Virus record (IMG/VR): IMGVR_UViG_3300007735_000537
Span: 1 to 25,853 of that record
DNA: 25,853 nucleotides
Direction: 5' to 3' (one strand)
From: a virus
This document shows positions 5,242 through 15,579 of this stretch, piece after piece. The position numbers and the translations under genes are program-made. The notes beneath the pieces are model-generated. The model did not search any database. It saw only the letters and a list, made by a program, of their open reading frames with translations, and was not told where the DNA came from. Position 1 is the stretch's first letter. The number at the start of each line of letters is the position of its first letter.

Positions 5242-6261
5242 ATGGCACTATCAGTATTAGACGGAAATCAGTCAGCGACCACCCTCTCTTCAGTAGTTAC
5301 TGGGGGAGAGCATATCGTAGCCCATAGCGTTGTAAGCCTTGGGAGCAACGCAATCTCTAATATCACAACCGCAGTTAGCGGAAGTATTGTCACAATCCCC
5401 AATCTCAATGTTTTAGCTAGGAGCGTAGCGACAGATGGAATTACTGATGGCACATTAAACTTCGTTAAGATTGGAGGCCATCAAGACGGCTCAAACCAAA
5501 CAGCCCATATCGTTCACGTTTCTAGTGGCGGTGCGATGAAGGTAGATGCAAGTGATTCAACCGTGACTTTTGGGGCAATTAGGGGAACAGTCACAATCGG
5601 AAACACAGTTACAATCGCTGGAACAGTCACAGCCAACCCAAATGGGACACAGACGATTGCTGGCACGGTGACGGCGAATGTTGGAAATTCAATAGTTATT
5701 CAAGTTGTTAGTGCTGTTCAAGATGGCGATGGCACTACATTTGGAATTGATCGTGACTTCCCCATCGCTGGCACGGTGACGGCAAATGCTGGAATTAGTT
5801 TTACAACTGCGGTAGAAAACGGAATTTTTGATTTCATAAATAACGAAGGTGTTATGCCCATCTCTGGCACAGTCACCATCGGCTCTGCCTTACCTACTGG
5901 CACAAACCGAATTGGCGTGGTCACGATTGGCGGTGGCACAGTAACAATCGGAGCAGGGACGGCACAGATTGGAAGCGTCACGGCATCTCTCGCAATCTCT
6001 TCCTCGGCCATAACATCAGGCAGTTTTACCTCACTAACTTCAGCCACACTCGTCCCCGCCAATACCGCCCGCAAGATGGCTACCGTCTACAATCTTGGAG
6101 CAGGGCAGTTATTTGTGAACGCAGGGGCAACTGCGACAACACTCGGAGGCGGATTTATGGTAGCTCTATCGAGCGGTGATTTCTACGAGTGCGACTATAC
6201 TACGACAACTCTTTCGGCTATTTTTGCAACAGCAGGCACCGCAAGCTGGATGAGTCACTAG
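5242..6261 (+). CDS. Repeat-rich virion protein with GTVTI/GTVTAN repeats
   Basis: A 339-residue structural-type protein. A strong AAGGAGG lies before the ATG. The middle (about residues 110-250) is built of repeated G-T-V-T-I and G-T-V-T-A-N units, mirrored in DNA as near-identical copies of GGCACGGTGACGG around 5660 and 5768. Such repeats usually form beta-helical or fibrous shafts. The C-terminal 75 residues (from about LVPANTARKMATVYN) resemble a small beta domain common at the ends of phage structural proteins: N-x-x-R-x-x-x-x-x-x-N, then GATAT and a late G-x-Y/F-Y-E. It may be a head or neck fibre or decoration; that role is inferred. Confidence 0.6.
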   Translation: MALSVLDGNQSATTLSSVVTGGEHIVAHSVVSLGSNAISNITTAVSGSIVTIPNLNVLARSVATDGITDGTLNFVKIGGHQDGSNQTAHIVHVSSGGAMKVDASDSTVTFGAIRGTVTIGNTVTIAGTVTANPNGTQTIAGTVTANVGNSIVIQVVSAVQDGDGTTFGIDRDFPIAGTVTANAGISFTTAVENGIFDFINNEGVMPISGTVTIGSALPTGTNRIGVVTIGGGTVTIGAGTAQIGSVTASLAISSSAITSGSFTSLTSATLVPANTARKMATVYNLGAGQLFVNAGATATTLGGGFMVALSSGDFYECDYTTTTLSAIFATAGTASWMSH

Positions 6262-6273
6262 AGGGAGTGGGCG

Positions 6274-6750
6274 ATGGCACTTTTTCGTTCGACTCCGCAA
6301 ATCTTCACTCTTTACGATACGACTTTAACTCAAGCCGTATCGACATCATTCGTTTCATCTGCAACTCAAATTACTCTTCTTACTGGAACATATCAATATG
6401 ATGGATGGGTTGGTGGAAGTACGGCATCTGGAACTGCTGGTGTTCAAACACAATTATCTTCTATTACTGGATCGGGTTGTTTTATTGTCCGATCACTTCG
6501 AGGTACTGGATATTTTAGCTTAACGATTGACCAAGGAGCGTCAAGAAGGGCAGATACAAATGCAAATTTACTGGCGGCTATAAATACTGGGGCGGCGGCG
6601 GCGGCTTGTGTTGGATTTTTGAATGGGACACTTGTATTGACTTCATCACAAACATTTGGATTTCAAATTGCACAAAGGAACGCAACGGATGCCGCAAATG
6701 CAACAATCCTTTCAACTGGTTCATATATTAGATTTGCAAAGATAGCCTAA
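6274..6750 (+). CDS. Beta-rich virion protein, unknown role
   Basis: A 158-residue protein rich in Ser, Thr, Gly and Ala, with GAGGGAG before the start. The pattern of short beta-like strands ending in GSYIRFAKIA resembles small jelly-roll or TNF/C1q-like knob domains found on phage fibres and decoration proteins, but this is a weak visual match. A run of alternating GGC/GCG codons gives GAAAAACVG near residue 107. It directly follows the GTVT-repeat protein and may be its partner. Confidence 0.5.
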   Translation: MALFRSTPQIFTLYDTTLTQAVSTSFVSSATQITLLTGTYQYDGWVGGSTASGTAGVQTQLSSITGSGCFIVRSLRGTGYFSLTIDQGASRRADTNANLLAAINTGAAAAACVGFLNGTLVLTSSQTFGFQIAQRNATDAANATILSTGSYIRFAKIA

Positions 6751-7309: not shown

Positions 7310-7666
7310 ATGGCCGCTACAAGTATAGGACTTTCTTCCGTTGCCTTTGGACTCGCCGCTGAAACTGGCGTTGTTATTCAGAGCTTCTCACTTACAAGCA
7401 CAGCCGAGACAACCGAAGTATCAAAGCACAATGGCACTCACTCTGCCGTTGCGTTTTCTGCTTATAAAAGGAATGTTAGTCTTTCTGGTAATTGTAGCGG
7501 TGCAGTTGCCTCCTCTGGAATTGGTGGGACTCTTGCCCTAACTGGCAACACAGCCGCAGTATCTAGCGGAACTTACTATGTGACCGATGTTTCTTTCTCA
7601 CAAGCCGCCGATGGCTTTAACAGCTTTGACCTATCCGCAACCGCATACGATGGATTAAATACATAA
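7310..7666 (+). CDS. Tail tube-like protein, copy 1 of a tandem pair
   Basis: A 118-residue protein with a beta-rich pattern and the sequence VVIQSFSLTSTAETTEVSKH typical of the first strands of small tail tube or tube-like proteins. It shares the MAAT N-terminus, F-G-(L/I)-A, (V/M)VIQS, AVAF/AVVF and a final A-x-x-YDG with the next gene. It is one or two genes upstream of the tail assembly chaperone, the usual place for a major tail protein. AAAGGA precedes the start and TTGACA lies 20 bases upstream. Confidence 0.6.
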   Translation: MAATSIGLSSVAFGLAAETGVVIQSFSLTSTAETTEVSKHNGTHSAVAFSAYKRNVSLSGNCSGAVASSGIGGTLALTGNTAAVSSGTYYVTDVSFSQAADGFNSFDLSATAYDGLNT

Positions 7667-7667
7667 T

Positions 7668-8021
7668 ATGGCCGCTACAATCATTGGAAATAGCACAGAC
7701 CTCGCCTTCGGGATTGCCTCTGCACAGACCGGGATGGTGATTCAATCCATTTCATCCTCTGCCTCGGCTGACGCAGTTGAGTTAAAGAATAAGGGCGGGG
7801 ATGTTACTGCGGTAGTGTTCCGCAATAAGAAAGTCACCTACTCTGTAGAGGGTGCATATACGACCTTTAGCGGTAGCGTTGGGGCAACTATCACAGTATC
7901 TAACGGAAGCAACTACGATTTATCTGGTGCGGCCTATATTACCGAAACAGCTAGAAATCGTAGTGCAGATAACTTTGAGACGGTATCCTTCACGGCAGTT
8001 CGATACGATGGTATAAGTTAG
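7668..8021 (+). CDS. Tail tube-like protein, copy 2 of a tandem pair
   Basis: A 117-residue paralogue of the previous gene, beginning one base after its stop. It keeps MAAT, FGIA, MVIQSIS, AVVF, a central Gly/Ser strand region and the ending AVRYDGIS. No ribosome binding site is visible, so translation is probably coupled. One copy may build the tube while the other forms a specialised ring, or the two may alternate; the sequence cannot tell them apart. Confidence 0.6.
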   Translation: MAATIIGNSTDLAFGIASAQTGMVIQSISSSASADAVELKNKGGDVTAVVFRNKKVTYSVEGAYTTFSGSVGATITVSNGSNYDLSGAAYITETARNRSADNFETVSFTAVRYDGIS

Positions 8022-8040: not shown

Positions 8041-8427
8041 ATGCAAGAAAAAATCCTTTATACTCGCAACATCAAACTCGCCTCAACCCTTGCCACTTTT
8101 GGCATCCCATTCAGAGAGAAAGAGCCAATGGCCGTCATTGAGGACGCAGACGATAACAACCGCAGAAGCGTTACATTCTTCTTTAGCGACCTTCCTAGTG
8201 GCCTTGGGGGAAAGATCGTGGATATGTGGGAAAAGGGCTGGTCAGCAATCACAAACTACGATGACCCAATAGCCTATTGCAGAGCCGTACTAGAGAACCG
8301 AGAGCGTCTATTGGACGCTATGAACAATGCAACTCCCCTAATCAAAAAGCAGTTTGGGAAAGCAACCCTGCTAGTTAGCAAGAACGCATCCCCAGAACTA
8401 CGAAAGAAATTGAGTAAATACCTATGA
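8041..8427 (+). CDS. Hypothetical protein upstream of the tail assembly chaperone
   Basis: A 128-residue mixed alpha/beta protein of unknown function. It begins with strands containing LASTLATFGIPF, has a central VTFFFSDLP segment, and ends in a basic helix (SPELRKKLSKYL). The start follows GAAATCCTT directly with no Shine-Dalgarno sequence. It overlaps the chaperone gene by ATGA and lies between tube-like and chaperone genes, so a tail-assembly role is inferred from position only. Confidence 0.55.
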   Translation: MQEKILYTRNIKLASTLATFGIPFREKEPMAVIEDADDNNRRSVTFFFSDLPSGLGGKIVDMWEKGWSAITNYDDPIAYCRAVLENRERLLDAMNNATPLIKKQFGKATLLVSKNASPELRKKLSKYL

Positions 8428-8804
8428 ACCTAGACCTACAAAAAGATGAGGAGATTCTGAACAAATCCCTAGATAAATCATTCGTCATAAACGAAAGAAT
8501 GTTTAAGGGAAGCAAGGTAGGTAAGTTCACCCTTGGGACAAGAATCGTGATGAACCAGATTCGTGAGGAAGCAGATACCACAGAGTTCTTTATCTGGTCT
8601 AGCCTATACTGCCTAACCCACCCAAGATCGGAGCTAGTAAAGTTAGCTTGGGACAAGGCCAAATTTAGAGAGGCAGTTCTGAATTGGTCTGATGAGTTCA
8701 ATGAGGCCGATTTTGTCGAAGGGGTAAAGATTGTAGACGAAATCTTCTCTGAAATTTCAGAAGCTCGTGTGCAGACAAATGGGGGTAGCGACTCCCCAAA
8801 ATAG
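8424..8804 (+). CDS. Tail assembly chaperone, short (G-like) product
   Basis: A 126-residue protein ending at TAG 8802-8804. In long-tailed phages a chaperone gene just upstream of the tape measure makes two products: a short form and a -1 frameshift form. This gene fits by position, size and the downstream frame. The body is helical (TRIVMNQIREEADTTEFFIW; then LAWDKAKFREAVLNW) and acidic overall. The product would coat the tape measure during tail assembly and not stay in the virion. Its last codons (TCC CCA AAA) carry the slippery heptamer. Confidence 0.75.
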   Translation: MNLDLQKDEEILNKSLDKSFVINERMFKGSKVGKFTLGTRIVMNQIREEADTTEFFIWSSLYCLTHPRSELVKLAWDKAKFREAVLNWSDEFNEADFVEGVKIVDEIFSEISEARVQTNGGSDSPK

Positions 8805-9004
8805 TACAGCCAGCCGGTATTGCTTCGTCCGTCTGGCTATTCGCAAAGGAGTTCGGTTGGACAGCGGAGCAAGTGCTGTGGGAGATGGCAGAGGTGCAAC
8901 TCGTTCAGCTAGAACACGCTATAATGATTAACAGAGGGATTGATGTTAGAAGGCATAATAAAAATGCAACGCACATATTAGACTCACTTCTTGACGATAG
9001 ATAA
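8424..9004 (+). CDS. Tail assembly chaperone, frameshifted long (GT-like) product
   Basis: The predicted product joins 8424-8801 with 8801-9004 by a -1 slip and has 193 residues. The added 67 residues begin IVQPAGIASSVWLFAKEFG and continue with a coherent helical sequence containing EQVLWEMAEVQLVQLEHA, ending at TAA 9002-9004. The -1 frame has a stop at 8786-8788 and no ATG until 8885, so it is not an independent gene with a full N-terminus. The T-like extension is expected to contact tail tube subunits, which is family knowledge rather than something seen here. Confidence 0.75.
8795..8838 (+). promoter_or_regulatory. Programmed -1 ribosomal frameshift signal
   Basis: The slippery heptamer C CCA AAA lies at 8795-8801 in the zero frame, just before the TAG stop. 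After a six-base spacer a stem forms between AGCCAG (8808-8813) and CTGGCT (8833-8838), continued after one mismatch by CGG (8815-8817) with CCG (8829-8831). The allowed overlap of the two frames is only 8789-8804, and this heptamer is the only slip site in it. Spacer and stem match known -1 frameshift signals. Confidence 0.75.
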
Positions 9005-9711: not shown

Positions 9712-11004
9712 ATGGCCTTTAAGCTAGAGGGAGAGGTAGTAATTGACGGACGCAAGGGAACAACTGCGTTAAAAGACCTTCAGAGGGAGGCCAACAAGAC
9801 ATCCGACACATTCAAGAGGGCTGGTGGAAATACCGAGCGACTGGGGAAAAGCCTTCTCTCGCTTGGGCTTAATGCCGGAAAGGCTGGCTCGTCTCTTGGC
9901 TCATTAGCTCGCTTGGGTGCTGGCGGGTTGTTTGGGGCGGCTGTTCTCGGTTCAATTAACAAGTTCGGAGAGACCGTCAAGCAAGCCTCAACAGACTACT
10001 ACCAATCCCAGAAAGCCTTGTCAGATGCCTTCGAGATGTCGTTTAAGAGTACAAGCGTTGAGCAAGCACAAGCTGGCCTAGAAAAGACCGAGGACACGAT
10101 TGAATCTTTGCGAGGAAAGATTACCCAGCTTGGTGCATTTGGTGGGATATTGAAAGGCATTGAGAAGTTCACAGGAATAAACCTTGGAGTTGGAGACACA
10201 GAAAGAGCATTGAAACAAGCTCAAGACCAGCTTCTAGTCCAAGAAGAAATTGTTAAACTCAAACAAAAAGAAGTAGATGAAATTAAAAACATTGAAAAGC
10301 AAAGCAGATCGGCAATAAACCTCTCAAAGCAGACTCAAGAAACTCTAAAATTTGTCAATGAGACAGAGGGTGGGAGGCAGATACTTGTAGACTTGGCTAA
10401 AGAGGAACTGAAACAAGCGGTTGCTTTAAGAGATGAAAATATAAAGATTCTCGACACGCTTATTGCATCCAATCGTGAGGGCAACAATAAAGAGCAAATC
10501 AATGCACGAAACATAAAATCTGCCGAACTGGAACTTCAAATATACAAATCACAAAACAATGTGATTAGGGCACAGAAAGCAGAGAGGGCGGCTGATGCGA
10601 AGCGATCACAAGAAGCTGGTGGTGGTCTATTGGGTGCAAGCAGAGCAGGGCAACAAGCCCTAGATGTTGCTAGGAAGGTAAGAGCTAGAGAGGTCAAGAA
10701 AGAAGATTTTAGAACACAAGACCAAGTGTTTGAGAGAATGAAAACAGAGGAAAATATTAAGCGTAAAGCCAAGGGACTGCCCCCAGTAACATCCCAACAA
10801 ATGAGAGAACAAGTGGCCTCACAACAAGCCGCTGGGGAGATGCCCCTGCTATCTGAAAAGCTGGGAGCGATGCAGGGCGGGACACCAGCAAGTCAAGTTG
10901 CCGCAGAAAAAGCAAAGGGTGGGGGTGGAGCAGATATGCAAAAATCATTATTAGATGCAATCAAGGCATTGTCTGACAAGCTTCCAGCCGCAGTAGCAAC
11001 ATAA
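9712..11004 (+). CDS. Tape measure protein, short
   Basis: A 430-residue protein in the expected place after the chaperone. The N-terminus (FKLEGEVVIDGRKGTTALKD, then NTERLGKSLLSLG) looks like the start of many tape measure proteins. A glycine-rich hydrophobic patch at about 60-85 (LGAGGLFGAAVLG) is followed by long charged coiled-coil helices (about 100-370) and a Gly-rich C-terminal region. At roughly 0.15 nm per residue it would give a tail near 65 nm, which is an estimate from family knowledge. Only one short hydrophobic stretch is seen. No peptidase or lytic domain is visible. Confidence 0.7.
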   Translation: MAFKLEGEVVIDGRKGTTALKDLQREANKTSDTFKRAGGNTERLGKSLLSLGLNAGKAGSSLGSLARLGAGGLFGAAVLGSINKFGETVKQASTDYYQSQKALSDAFEMSFKSTSVEQAQAGLEKTEDTIESLRGKITQLGAFGGILKGIEKFTGINLGVGDTERALKQAQDQLLVQEEIVKLKQKEVDEIKNIEKQSRSAINLSKQTQETLKFVNETEGGRQILVDLAKEELKQAVALRDENIKILDTLIASNREGNNKEQINARNIKSAELELQIYKSQNNVIRAQKAERAADAKRSQEAGGGLLGASRAGQQALDVARKVRAREVKKEDFRTQDQVFERMKTEENIKRKAKGLPPVTSQQMREQVASQQAAGEMPLLSEKLGAMQGGTPASQVAAEKAKGGGGADMQKSLLDAIKALSDKLPAAVAT

Positions 11005-11979: not shown

Positions 11980-14900
11980 GTGAACTCTCAAGAGCTATTT
12001 CTCGATGTGTCTAGTGGGAGATTTTTGGATGGTCAAAGCACCATCCCAATTAGCAAGCCAACAATATTTTCTGATGAGCAGAGGAATCTAAAAATTAATG
12101 TTCTTCAAGTAAGTAAAAATGTTGTTAGCTCCAAACAGCCAGCCAATGATAGTTCTTTTAAGGCCAGACTTGGAACTGCGGCATTAAAATTGGCAGATGG
12201 TCAAGCCGTCAGCACACAGCCAATCAACACAACTAGAGCCACCGCAACCATAGTAACATCGCCAGCGGCAAGAACAGTTGGTTCAGCCAGAATATTTACA
12301 TATACACCAGTAACCGCTAACATCATTTCTTCGATAGCAACCTTCCCAATCGTTACTGGCGTATTTAGATTAAATGTCGATTATATTGCACCAGTCACAG
12401 CAAGCATAACAGCGGGGTTTGGAATACCCACACCAACCACCATAACCCGACCTCTTCAATATGTAGATTCTGGGATTGCGGCTAGTTATGAATTATCAGA
12501 TAATTCAGTAAGAGTTAATCCAGACCTAGCACAATCATTAAACACGACAACAACAGCAACCTTTGTTTCCTCTATTTTAGCTGGCGAGGTTGTTGGAATA
12601 AGTATTGCAAATAGGGGTAGCGGATATCCAAATGGAACTTACAGCTTAAATGTTTCTCCATCTATAACAACTGGTGCAAGCTTCACCGCAACAATATCTG
12701 CTGGGGTAGTGACAACAATATCGATTGTTACTGGTGGATTTGGTTATTCAAACGGCCCATTTGATTTAGTATTTAGTGCAACTACTGGAACTATTGCGGC
12801 GGCAACTGCGTCAGCCGTAAGCGGCTCAATCAATAAAATAACTATCACCAATGGTGGAACTGGCTATTCGACTGCTCCAAGCGTAACACTTGCCGCACCA
12901 ACAGCCGGAACAGCGGTTGCAACAGTTGTTGCAAGTGGTGGTTTTATTCAGTCACTAACAATAACAAGCGGGGGCTTTGGATATACAAATGCCCCGACTG
13001 TAACGCTTTTCCAGCCCACTAAATCATTGGCTAGTCTTACTAATCAAATTGTAGACTTGGGTTGCAAGGGAGTTAATACAAACACGATTTCGCTTGAATT
13101 TAGCGACCCAGACGGAGGGCAGACACCCCCCACATCTAAAAGACCAATCGCATCAATACAATATACTGGGGATGGTACGCTATGGAGAATTATTGTTAGC
13201 GATGTTGGATACGGATATTCTGCAACTCCAACAGTATCACACGGAGATATTTTAGCATATTTGCCAGTATTAAAAACTGGTTTTACAACGAATTTAGAAG
13301 GGCTATCACAAAATAGAAATCAAGCAATAGTCGGAGGTGGGGCTTTTGGTGGTGTCGCATTAAATACTGTTGCAACCTTTTCTGAAACTGCAACAAAGAT
13401 CAATCTTGGGGGTCTTAAAATTGGGTTTAATACCAGAACATTTTTTACTCAAAATCACAAATGGCTTACTGGTGGCTATTCACTTGATAACGAGTTTCGC
13501 TATGTGTTTGCAGACTATAATGGCGGTGCGTATAGTTCTGACCCAAGAATTGCTTTGGCACAACAAACACCGGCAGTTGTAAGGGGGGCTCAATTACTAA
13601 ACTCTATTGGAGTTGTTGTAACTGGTTCTATTTATGACCCTCAACAAACTAGGGTATTTAGGCCAGCAGAATATGGAAGAAGCTCGCTCTTAACTAGCGG
13701 AGCTATCACTTCAGAGGAATACAGAAAATATTTCCCTCAAGGAACACCAGTAGATATCAAGGGTGTTACTGTAGTTGGCAGAAGAAATCTTACAAATGCT
13801 AATGCAAATGCTGTTTCTAATCTTCCAAACCCACAGCACGATAAATTTGCTGGGAAAAGTGCCTTGGTTGCGATTGTTCCAAAAGATAGAAGTATTGTCC
13901 CAACCAGATATGCGGTTATGGAGATTGTTATTCCTTCAAGAGACACATCCTATCAAGTTTCTTCTCTAGATTTGGGAAACAATGGTAGCTATCAAGATTT
14001 TGGAGGAGGCAGATATACGCCAGAGTTTAGGGTCTTGGATGCTGGTGCTGGATATCCATCAACATATACAAAATCTTATGACCTAGTTGAGCTTGGGGCA
14101 TTATCTAGTGACCCAGTTATTTTTGAATTTAGTGGCACTACTGTTTATACTATGCCAGCGACCCTTGCTGACGGCTTTATTGATACGGCCTTCTCTACCC
14201 CCGCAAGCATCGCAACCCGACCCGGCCCTTCCGCCGTACAATATCTATTGGGTAGTGGGGGCGTTGGATATACCAGAAGCACAAATATTGCATTCCAAAG
14301 CGTTCAAACCTTGGGGCTAGTTCGATCTGCCAGCTTGAGCAATACGCCAGCATCGTATTCAGATGGAACATATAGCTGTTCCGTGCAAGCCCCTGCGTCT
14401 GGAACACCAGCACAAATAAATTTAGTTGTGGATAGAAATGGAAGCAGATCACAAGTTGTAGTTGTAAATGGTGGTAGTGGATATACTTCTGCACCTATTG
14501 TTACCGCCCCAGCACCAAACTTTATTAGTGGACAAGTGAAAAGTGTTTCTGTTTTGACCCAGCCTCAAGGATATTCAATAGATCAACAATTCTCACTTTC
14601 AGTTCCAACCAGCCCTATTGATGGTGGACAAGCCTCAATATTATTTACGCAATCTAGCTCTGGCTCTGTAAATGTAGTTATTGAAAATCCCGGCTTCGGT
14701 TATCAATCTACGCAAGTTGCAACTGCACCAGACCCAGACAGAAGATTCCAATCTGGATTTTTAAGAACACTCGAATTGCAAAATAGTCCTAACGGCTACA
14801 TAGTTGGGCAATCTTATTCCTTGCAAATTGGGCAAAGCCCACAATCGGGGGGAAATGCAGTTGTAAATCTTATTAAAGAATCAGAATCTAAATATACATT

Positions 14901-15579
14901 CCAGATAGTTAATGCTGGTGCTGGTTATTCCTCTGCTCCTATTGTAACAGCACCAAGTCCAGACGCACCTAATGGATTGCTTTCGTCAGTAGCAGTAACA
15001 ACTTTGGGTGCTGGATACGCACCCGGAACATACGAGGCCACAGTAGGTACAGCCCCCTCTGGGGGGCAGACAGCAAAAGTTAATTATGTTGTTGATGAGA
15101 ATTTAAGTGGTGAATATGTTATTGTCGAGAGCGGCAAGGGATATACTTCAGCCCCATCTATTTCTGTTCCAACGCCGGCGGGTGCTGTTATTTCCTCTAT
15201 TTCCATCACTTGTGCTGGCTCTTATTATACTAGTGATAACTATAGCGTGACAATCCAAGATGCGACTGGTTCTGGTGCTAGGCTAGATGTCCCAACAATA
15301 CAGAATGGTCAGTTACAAAATATCAATGTTTTGGATAAGGGCTATGGCTTTACGGATAACCCAACAATTATTTTCCCCAAGCCTCCTATCCCACAAACTC
15401 TACAATTACAAAGAAATCAGTTAGACTTAATCTTTAACATCACAACTGCTTCGGCCAATGCCATCCTATCCACAGCCACCCAAAGAGACATCCTTATGGA
15501 AGTCTACGAGACGGACGGAACGAACGAGCAGGTTGTGGCACAAGCTACTGTAAGTCTGGCCAAGCGAGTTTTAGAATAG
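11980..15579 (+). CDS. Large repeat-containing tail fibre/adhesion-like protein
   Basis: A 1199-residue protein starting at GTG 11980, with AAGGG about 12 bases upstream and TTGACA at 11959-11964. It holds two blocks of modules marked by G-G-x-G-Y-(T/S)-x-x-P-x-V-T: one at about residues 200-420 and one at about 780-1135. The second block is five tandem units of about 68 residues, each with a G-Y-x-x-G-x-Y half and a GYTSAPxVTAPxP half. Between the blocks lies a unique region (about 430-775) with GYSLDNEFRYVFADYNGG that could be an enzymatic or receptor-binding part. The C-terminal 80 residues (QRDILMEVYETDG) look like a separate beta domain. Similar GxGY repeats are widespread in aquatic phage virion proteins. 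A receptor-binding or tail-fibre role is likely but not proven. Confidence 0.65.
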   Translation: MNSQELFLDVSSGRFLDGQSTIPISKPTIFSDEQRNLKINVLQVSKNVVSSKQPANDSSFKARLGTAALKLADGQAVSTQPINTTRATATIVTSPAARTVGSARIFTYTPVTANIISSIATFPIVTGVFRLNVDYIAPVTASITAGFGIPTPTTITRPLQYVDSGIAASYELSDNSVRVNPDLAQSLNTTTTATFVSSILAGEVVGISIANRGSGYPNGTYSLNVSPSITTGASFTATISAGVVTTISIVTGGFGYSNGPFDLVFSATTGTIAAATASAVSGSINKITITNGGTGYSTAPSVTLAAPTAGTAVATVVASGGFIQSLTITSGGFGYTNAPTVTLFQPTKSLASLTNQIVDLGCKGVNTNTISLEFSDPDGGQTPPTSKRPIASIQYTGDGTLWRIIVSDVGYGYSATPTVSHGDILAYLPVLKTGFTTNLEGLSQNRNQAIVGGGAFGGVALNTVATFSETATKINLGGLKIGFNTRTFFTQNHKWLTGGYSLDNEFRYVFADYNGGAYSSDPRIALAQQTPAVVRGAQLLNSIGVVVTGSIYDPQQTRVFRPAEYGRSSLLTSGAITSEEYRKYFPQGTPVDIKGVTVVGRRNLTNANANAVSNLPNPQHDKFAGKSALVAIVPKDRSIVPTRYAVMEIVIPSRDTSYQVSSLDLGNNGSYQDFGGGRYTPEFRVLDAGAGYPSTYTKSYDLVELGALSSDPVIFEFSGTTVYTMPATLADGFIDTAFSTPASIATRPGPSAVQYLLGSGGVGYTRSTNIAFQSVQTLGLVRSASLSNTPASYSDGTYSCSVQAPASGTPAQINLVVDRNGSRSQVVVVNGGSGYTSAPIVTAPAPNFISGQVKSVSVLTQPQGYSIDQQFSLSVPTSPIDGGQASILFTQSSSGSVNVVIENPGFGYQSTQVATAPDPDRRFQSGFLRTLELQNSPNGYIVGQSYSLQIGQSPQSGGNAVVNLIKESESKYTFQIVNAGAGYSSAPIVTAPSPDAPNGLLSSVAVTTLGAGYAPGTYEATVGTAPSGGQTAKVNYVVDENLSGEYVIVESGKGYTSAPSISVPTPAGAVISSISITCAGSYYTSDNYSVTIQDATGSGARLDVPTIQNGQLQNINVLDKGYGFTDNPTIIFPKPPIPQTLQLQRNQLDLIFNITTASANAILSTATQRDILMEVYETDGTNEQVVAQATVSLAKRVLE
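14312..15390 (+). repeat. Five tandem ~68-residue GxGY protein repeats
   Basis: Five units follow each other inside the large fibre-like gene, marked by GGSGYTSAP (near 14470), PGFGYQSTQ (near 14690), AGAGYSSAP (near 14915), SGKGYTSAP (near 15130) and DKGYGFTDN (near 15335). Most units close with a proline-rich APxPD/N-type linker. The first, third and fourth are most alike. The array could change copy number by recombination. Confidence 0.65.

Follow-up and report, generated by a model that had tools for sequence, protein, structure and literature searches.

A conserved CCCAAAA heptamer points to programmed -1 frameshifting and a long form of a tail-chaperone-like phage protein

Does a small gene upstream of the likely tape measure gene of an uncultured phage encode one protein, or two by way of a ribosomal frameshift? 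The window analyzed here, 25,853 nucleotides in length, is the whole IMG/VR virus record, and the elements at issue are as follows.

8424-8804, + strand: short form, a 0-frame ORF of 126 aa, gpG-like probable tail assembly chaperone
8795-8801, + strand: slip heptamer C_CCA_AAA, the same in every relative covering the site
8802-8804, + strand: 0-frame stop TAG, directly 3' of the heptamer and not strictly kept
8789-9004, + strand: open region in the -1 frame, with the extension IVQPAG...DDR of 67 residues, a T-like domain

The short ORF ends in TCC CCA AAA TAG. The -1 frame, bounded by TAG 8786-8788 before it and TAA 9002-9004 at its end, translates as RLPKIVQPAGIASSVWLFAKEFGWTAEQ...LLDDR. A ribosome slipping on the heptamer would read from codon 8801-8803 to codon 8999-9001, adding 67 residues after the two re-paired codons and giving a predicted long form of 193 aa (126 + 67). 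At the sequence level, therefore, a short and a -1 extended product are both available from one start. The first-pass annotation had ended the short frame at TAG 8802, opened the -1 frame from 8789 to 9004 with 67 residues, and named C CCA AAA as the sole X_XXY_YYZ site within the overlap; all of its coordinates are right, and no second site was found there.

In the likely genes of the window, in-frame X_XXY_YYZ heptamers of any kind occupy 27 of 7178 codon positions, and the chance of finding one at the last two codons of an ORF is about 0.4%. To see whether this one is kept, we queried IMG/VR with the short form, the extension and profiles of both, which gave about 32 contigs. The short form is conserved in 31 of these (58-100% aa identity), and the extension shows the same range of identity among relatives (58-100%). 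No homologue was found among INPHARED phages with the short form or in GTDB genomes with the two profiles. Each of the 31 contigs from relatives that span the site has CCCAAAA exactly, even where protein identity falls to about 59%, while the flanks of the heptamer vary, from TCC CCA AAA TAG to GAC CCA AAA TAG or GAC CCA AAA CAA TAA; in two relatives (L052 and L053), CAA TAA takes the place of the 0-frame TAG. The comparison with relatives proposed in the first-pass annotation has thus been run, and both the heptamer and the open -1 frame are kept in every relative covering the site. Judged by this conservation, the site lies far beyond chance.

Is the heptamer conserved as nucleotides or merely as protein? 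Across 28 distinct sequences, the slip codons CCA and AAA are invariant. Each of the other five conserved Lys columns is a mixture of AAA and AAG, and the codon is invariant at only 6 of the 54 invariant residues. Synonymous variation is 0.00 at the two slip codons; elsewhere in the short ORF it averages 0.41. In these 28 sequences, the heptamer is kept at the nucleotide level beyond what the amino acids need. Conservation by itself makes programmed -1 frameshifting at CCCAAAA nearly certain.

The heptamer is of a kind well characterized in E. coli. C_CC.A_AA.A is on the list of motifs that shift at >0.10% in E. coli without stimulators, and is one of the efficient V_VV.A_AA.R motifs (Sharma et al. 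2014, PMC4066793). The most efficient motifs in E. coli allow cognate re-pairing in the A site (Sharma et al., PMC4066793). Hence CCCAAAA is neither exotic nor weak mechanistically, its class C_CC.A_AA.R being efficient in E. coli; the heptamer class is the same, although it was measured in E. coli reporters and not in the host of this phage (PMC4066793). No relevant paper turned up when the literature was searched for CCCAAAA in tail genes of phages.

We then considered how the extension itself evolves. Variable sites fall 37/21/56 at codon positions 1/2/3 of the -1 frame, and dN/dS in that frame is about 0.1-0.2 for most pairs (pairwise dN 0.05-0.34 versus dS 0.69-2.4 where computable, with dS often >1). 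Each of the other two frames contains about 4 stops across the extension. For the short ORF, dN/dS is well below 1. These substitution patterns indicate that selection acts on the extension as a protein read in the -1 frame. Taken together, the conserved heptamer, the open frame and selection on the extension support the programmed -1 frameshift proposed in the first-pass annotation.

The neighborhood of the gene is more variable. In the relative 3300009152_000253 (L049/L061), the extension is separated from the gene occupying the 9012 position by an additional ORF of roughly 0.7 kb, which looks like an insertion into the tail module. In another relative (L053:5217-7458), the frameshift gene is conserved and quite different proteins are encoded where the 9012 gene and the tape measure gene would lie, which suggests module exchange.

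A 3' structure or a 5' Shine-Dalgarno (SD)-like stimulator is common, but not obligatory, in bacterial -1 frameshifting. Two candidates are present here.

8808-8838, + strand: downstream stem-loop, arms 8808-8817 / 8829-8838, with one mismatch and an 11-nt loop
8781-8786, + strand: SD-like purine run GGGGGT, 8-9 nt before the heptamer, a possible 5' stimulator

The stem is separated from the heptamer by a 6-nt spacer (8802-8807), and consists of 6 bp (8808-8813/8833-8838), the mismatch C8814.U8832, and 3 bp (8815-8817/8829-8831), exactly the geometry given in the first-pass annotation. Across relatives, 90% of cells are paired, compared to 19-47% in slid controls, and one pair is compensatory, with both of its bases altered in two sequences to turn CG into UA. 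Synonymous variation is 0.11 in stem-arm codons versus 0.33 elsewhere (permutation fraction 0.003, which is indicative, given that codons were permuted as if independent and that the sequences are related by descent), and codons 3-15 of the extension form its lowest 13-codon stretch of synonymous variation. Folding energy is unremarkable, with z about -1.2 versus shuffles, and likewise versus synonymous resamplings for most sequences. In one relative (L050), the region has a different best fold, and a search of Rfam gave no match. The proposed stem is therefore partly borne out, by pairing, covariation and reduced synonymous variation, but not by folding energy, which does not exceed that of controls; on this comparative evidence, the stem is probable.

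The purine run, absent from the first-pass annotation, is present across the core clade, reads GGAGG in most relatives, and lies within the 6-17 nt range at which SD-like stimulators are used (PMC4066793). It does not rise above synonymous resampling (fraction at least as strong, 0.07-0.88), so any stimulatory role for it is unproven.

A comparison beyond this lineage is provided by Akkermansia phage Moulinsart, which A. muciniphila carries as an inducible prophage (PMC10197239). Two further genes of the window bear on this comparison.

8041-8427, + strand: upstream gene, 128 aa, overlapping the short ORF by ATGA
9712-11004, + strand: likely tape measure protein, 430 aa, two genes downstream, assigned by position and composition only

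In Moulinsart (WAK79076/WAK79077; ON453896 10632-11332; L158:3063-3763), an ORF ends in TCA AAA AAC TAG and the -1 frame continues KKLAEPDGWAGLIMIMARATGWTEYY..., such that an A_AAA_AAC slip site would join WAK79076 to the frame of WAK79077. The annotation of that genome shows two hypothetical proteins and no frameshift. A_AAA_AAC followed by TAG is kept in all nine IMG/VR loci of the Moulinsart group. Aligned with the Moulinsart extension, that of the window gives an hhalign score of 31.4, compared to 19.7 for the best of 200 column-shuffled nulls, and phmmer finds the match from the window (E 5.5e-4) and from L050 (E 3.8e-5). By these profile and sequence comparisons, the two extensions are homologous. 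Their alignment begins at the landing codon and the heptamers differ, which implies that evolution has kept the point of entry but not the heptamer. The short forms align marginally (1 of 200 nulls is as good), are barely recognizable as alike, and are not clearly homologous. The two systems also share a slip site just before TAG and a homologous companion gene: in Moulinsart, the counterpart of 8041-8427 (hhalign P 9e-10) immediately precedes the gene annotated as tape measure, and the frameshift pair is located at another place in that module. Gene order is otherwise different, with one gene between the frameshift pair and the (likely) tape measure gene in the window and three in Moulinsart.

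Elsewhere in the window, the ORFs at 7310-7666 and 7668-8021 are neighbors, and each encodes a small protein that looks rich in beta structure; the pair may be tandem paralogues. Of the two, the latter has a match in Moulinsart 5893-6276 (E 1e-6), which lies between a Clp-like protease gene and a possible capsid gene, and for that reason a tail-tube label for it is uncertain. The 1199-aa product of 11980-15579 is rich in repeats, and these resemble structural and fibre proteins of cyanophages.

Could the -1 frame instead be a separate small gene with its own start, reached by internal initiation or by coupled re-initiation after TAG 8802? Upstream there is a purine run (8781-8786), coupling is frequent for short overlapping ORFs, and the submitters of Moulinsart annotated a separate CDS starting well inside the frame. 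However, no in-frame ATG, GTG or TTG precedes the conserved VWLFAKEFGW block, so that ATA or ATT would have to serve as start, and the conserved part of the extension begins at the slip codons (PKI), upstream of any such codon, which argues against a separate start. Independent initiation would also leave the synonymous freeze of CCA AAA unexplained, and we consider it very improbable. A -1 product would likewise be expected if transcriptional slippage at C4A4 made a shifted mRNA. Bacterial RNA polymerase is described as slipping efficiently on stretches of about nine A or T (PMC5009743), whereas the run here is only CCCC AAAA, and CCC AAAA in L050-L053, making this explanation extremely unlikely. 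Conservation from the slip codons onward and the shortness of the run lead us to reject these two alternatives. A 1-base sequencing error, or a gene decayed and split by a frameshift mutation, would resemble a split frame as well, but in 31 contigs, with identity falling as low as 59%, the frame is split at one and the same base and both halves are under purifying selection; the relatives already refute this idea, and we give it virtually no credence.

Granting a frameshift, what is the product? Known tail assembly chaperones share little sequence. Searches of Pfam, PHROGs, PDB and BFVD returned no significant match to a named tail assembly chaperone. The best PHROGs match, phrog_33493, is not significant (E 0.24-0.29), PDB sequence and fold searches gave no match, and the only significant Foldseek match is to an uncharacterised phage protein. 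The short form is predicted to fold as a beta-hairpin plus helices (pLDDT 77); the extension, for which the model is weak (pLDDT 63), gave no significant match in Foldseek. No family match was obtained for the tape measure candidate at 9712-11004. As no profile, sequence or fold search names a chaperone, the role is assigned by analogy. Genes of the gpG/gpGT type are recognized by just such a design, a -1 frameshift giving two products of about this size a short way ahead of the tape measure gene (PMC5009743; PMC2628397). Genes of this type are expected between those for the major tail protein and the tape measure; here the frameshift pair lies two genes before the likely tape measure gene, and no gene could be securely assigned as the major tail gene. 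As in lambda gpG/gpGT, there is a short 0-frame product with a -1 C-terminal extension, a heptamer right where the first frame ends, and a location a little upstream of the (here likely) tape measure gene. Lambda differs in its heptamer (G_GGA_AAG there, C_CCA_AAA here) and in gene order, which is not strictly followed here given the one intervening gene, and family searches detect no sequence similarity between the two. By analogy, the gene very likely works like a gpG/gpGT tail assembly chaperone, though homology placing it among them was not found. The tail-chaperone label of the first-pass annotation accordingly survives as the best reading of position, sizes and frameshift design, and lacks a profile or fold match. 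The missing family and fold match, together with the intervening genes before the likely tape measure gene, would also suit a real frameshift with another product, such as a minor structural protein with a low-copy extended form; against this stands the gpG/gpGT-type combination of size, two-product shift and position, and we regard such a product as improbable. Somewhat less improbable, though still unlikely, is that the gene belongs to a separate frameshifted phage protein family, common to the uncultured lineage and Akkermansia prophages, whose role might differ from that of gpG/gpGT. The extension and entry point would then be conserved, the heptamer (CCCAAAA/AAAAAAC) and short partner would have been replaced or have diverged beyond recognition, and the shift itself would be the oldest conserved part.

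We favor, with good confidence, -1 frameshifting that yields short and long tail-chaperone-like forms as the full explanation. In the proposed mechanism, a ribosome on C_CCA_AAA would hold tRNA-Pro in the P site and tRNA-Lys in the A site. A minority of ribosomes would slip by -1, re-pair on CCC and AAA (the Lys tRNA on an identical codon), bypass TAG and read the -1 frame to 9004, making the 193-aa product beside the 126-aa product. The stem six bases downstream, and perhaps the upstream SD-like run, would raise the slip rate. If the analogy to lambda gpG/gpGT holds, the portion present in both products would cover the tape measure protein, and the 67 added residues would bring in subunits of the tail tube. 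We infer the slippage itself, its rate, the effect of the stimulators and the chaperone role.

The frameshift is new and unannotated here, but of a well-known textbook phage kind, and general understanding of tail assembly or frameshifting is unchanged. What it adds is a frameshifted gene missed by profile libraries, in a phage lineage for which no cultured members were found. For annotation, the long form belongs in the gene lists of these genomes. The same unannotated frameshift is indicated in an inducible Akkermansia muciniphila prophage, which can be grown and tested.
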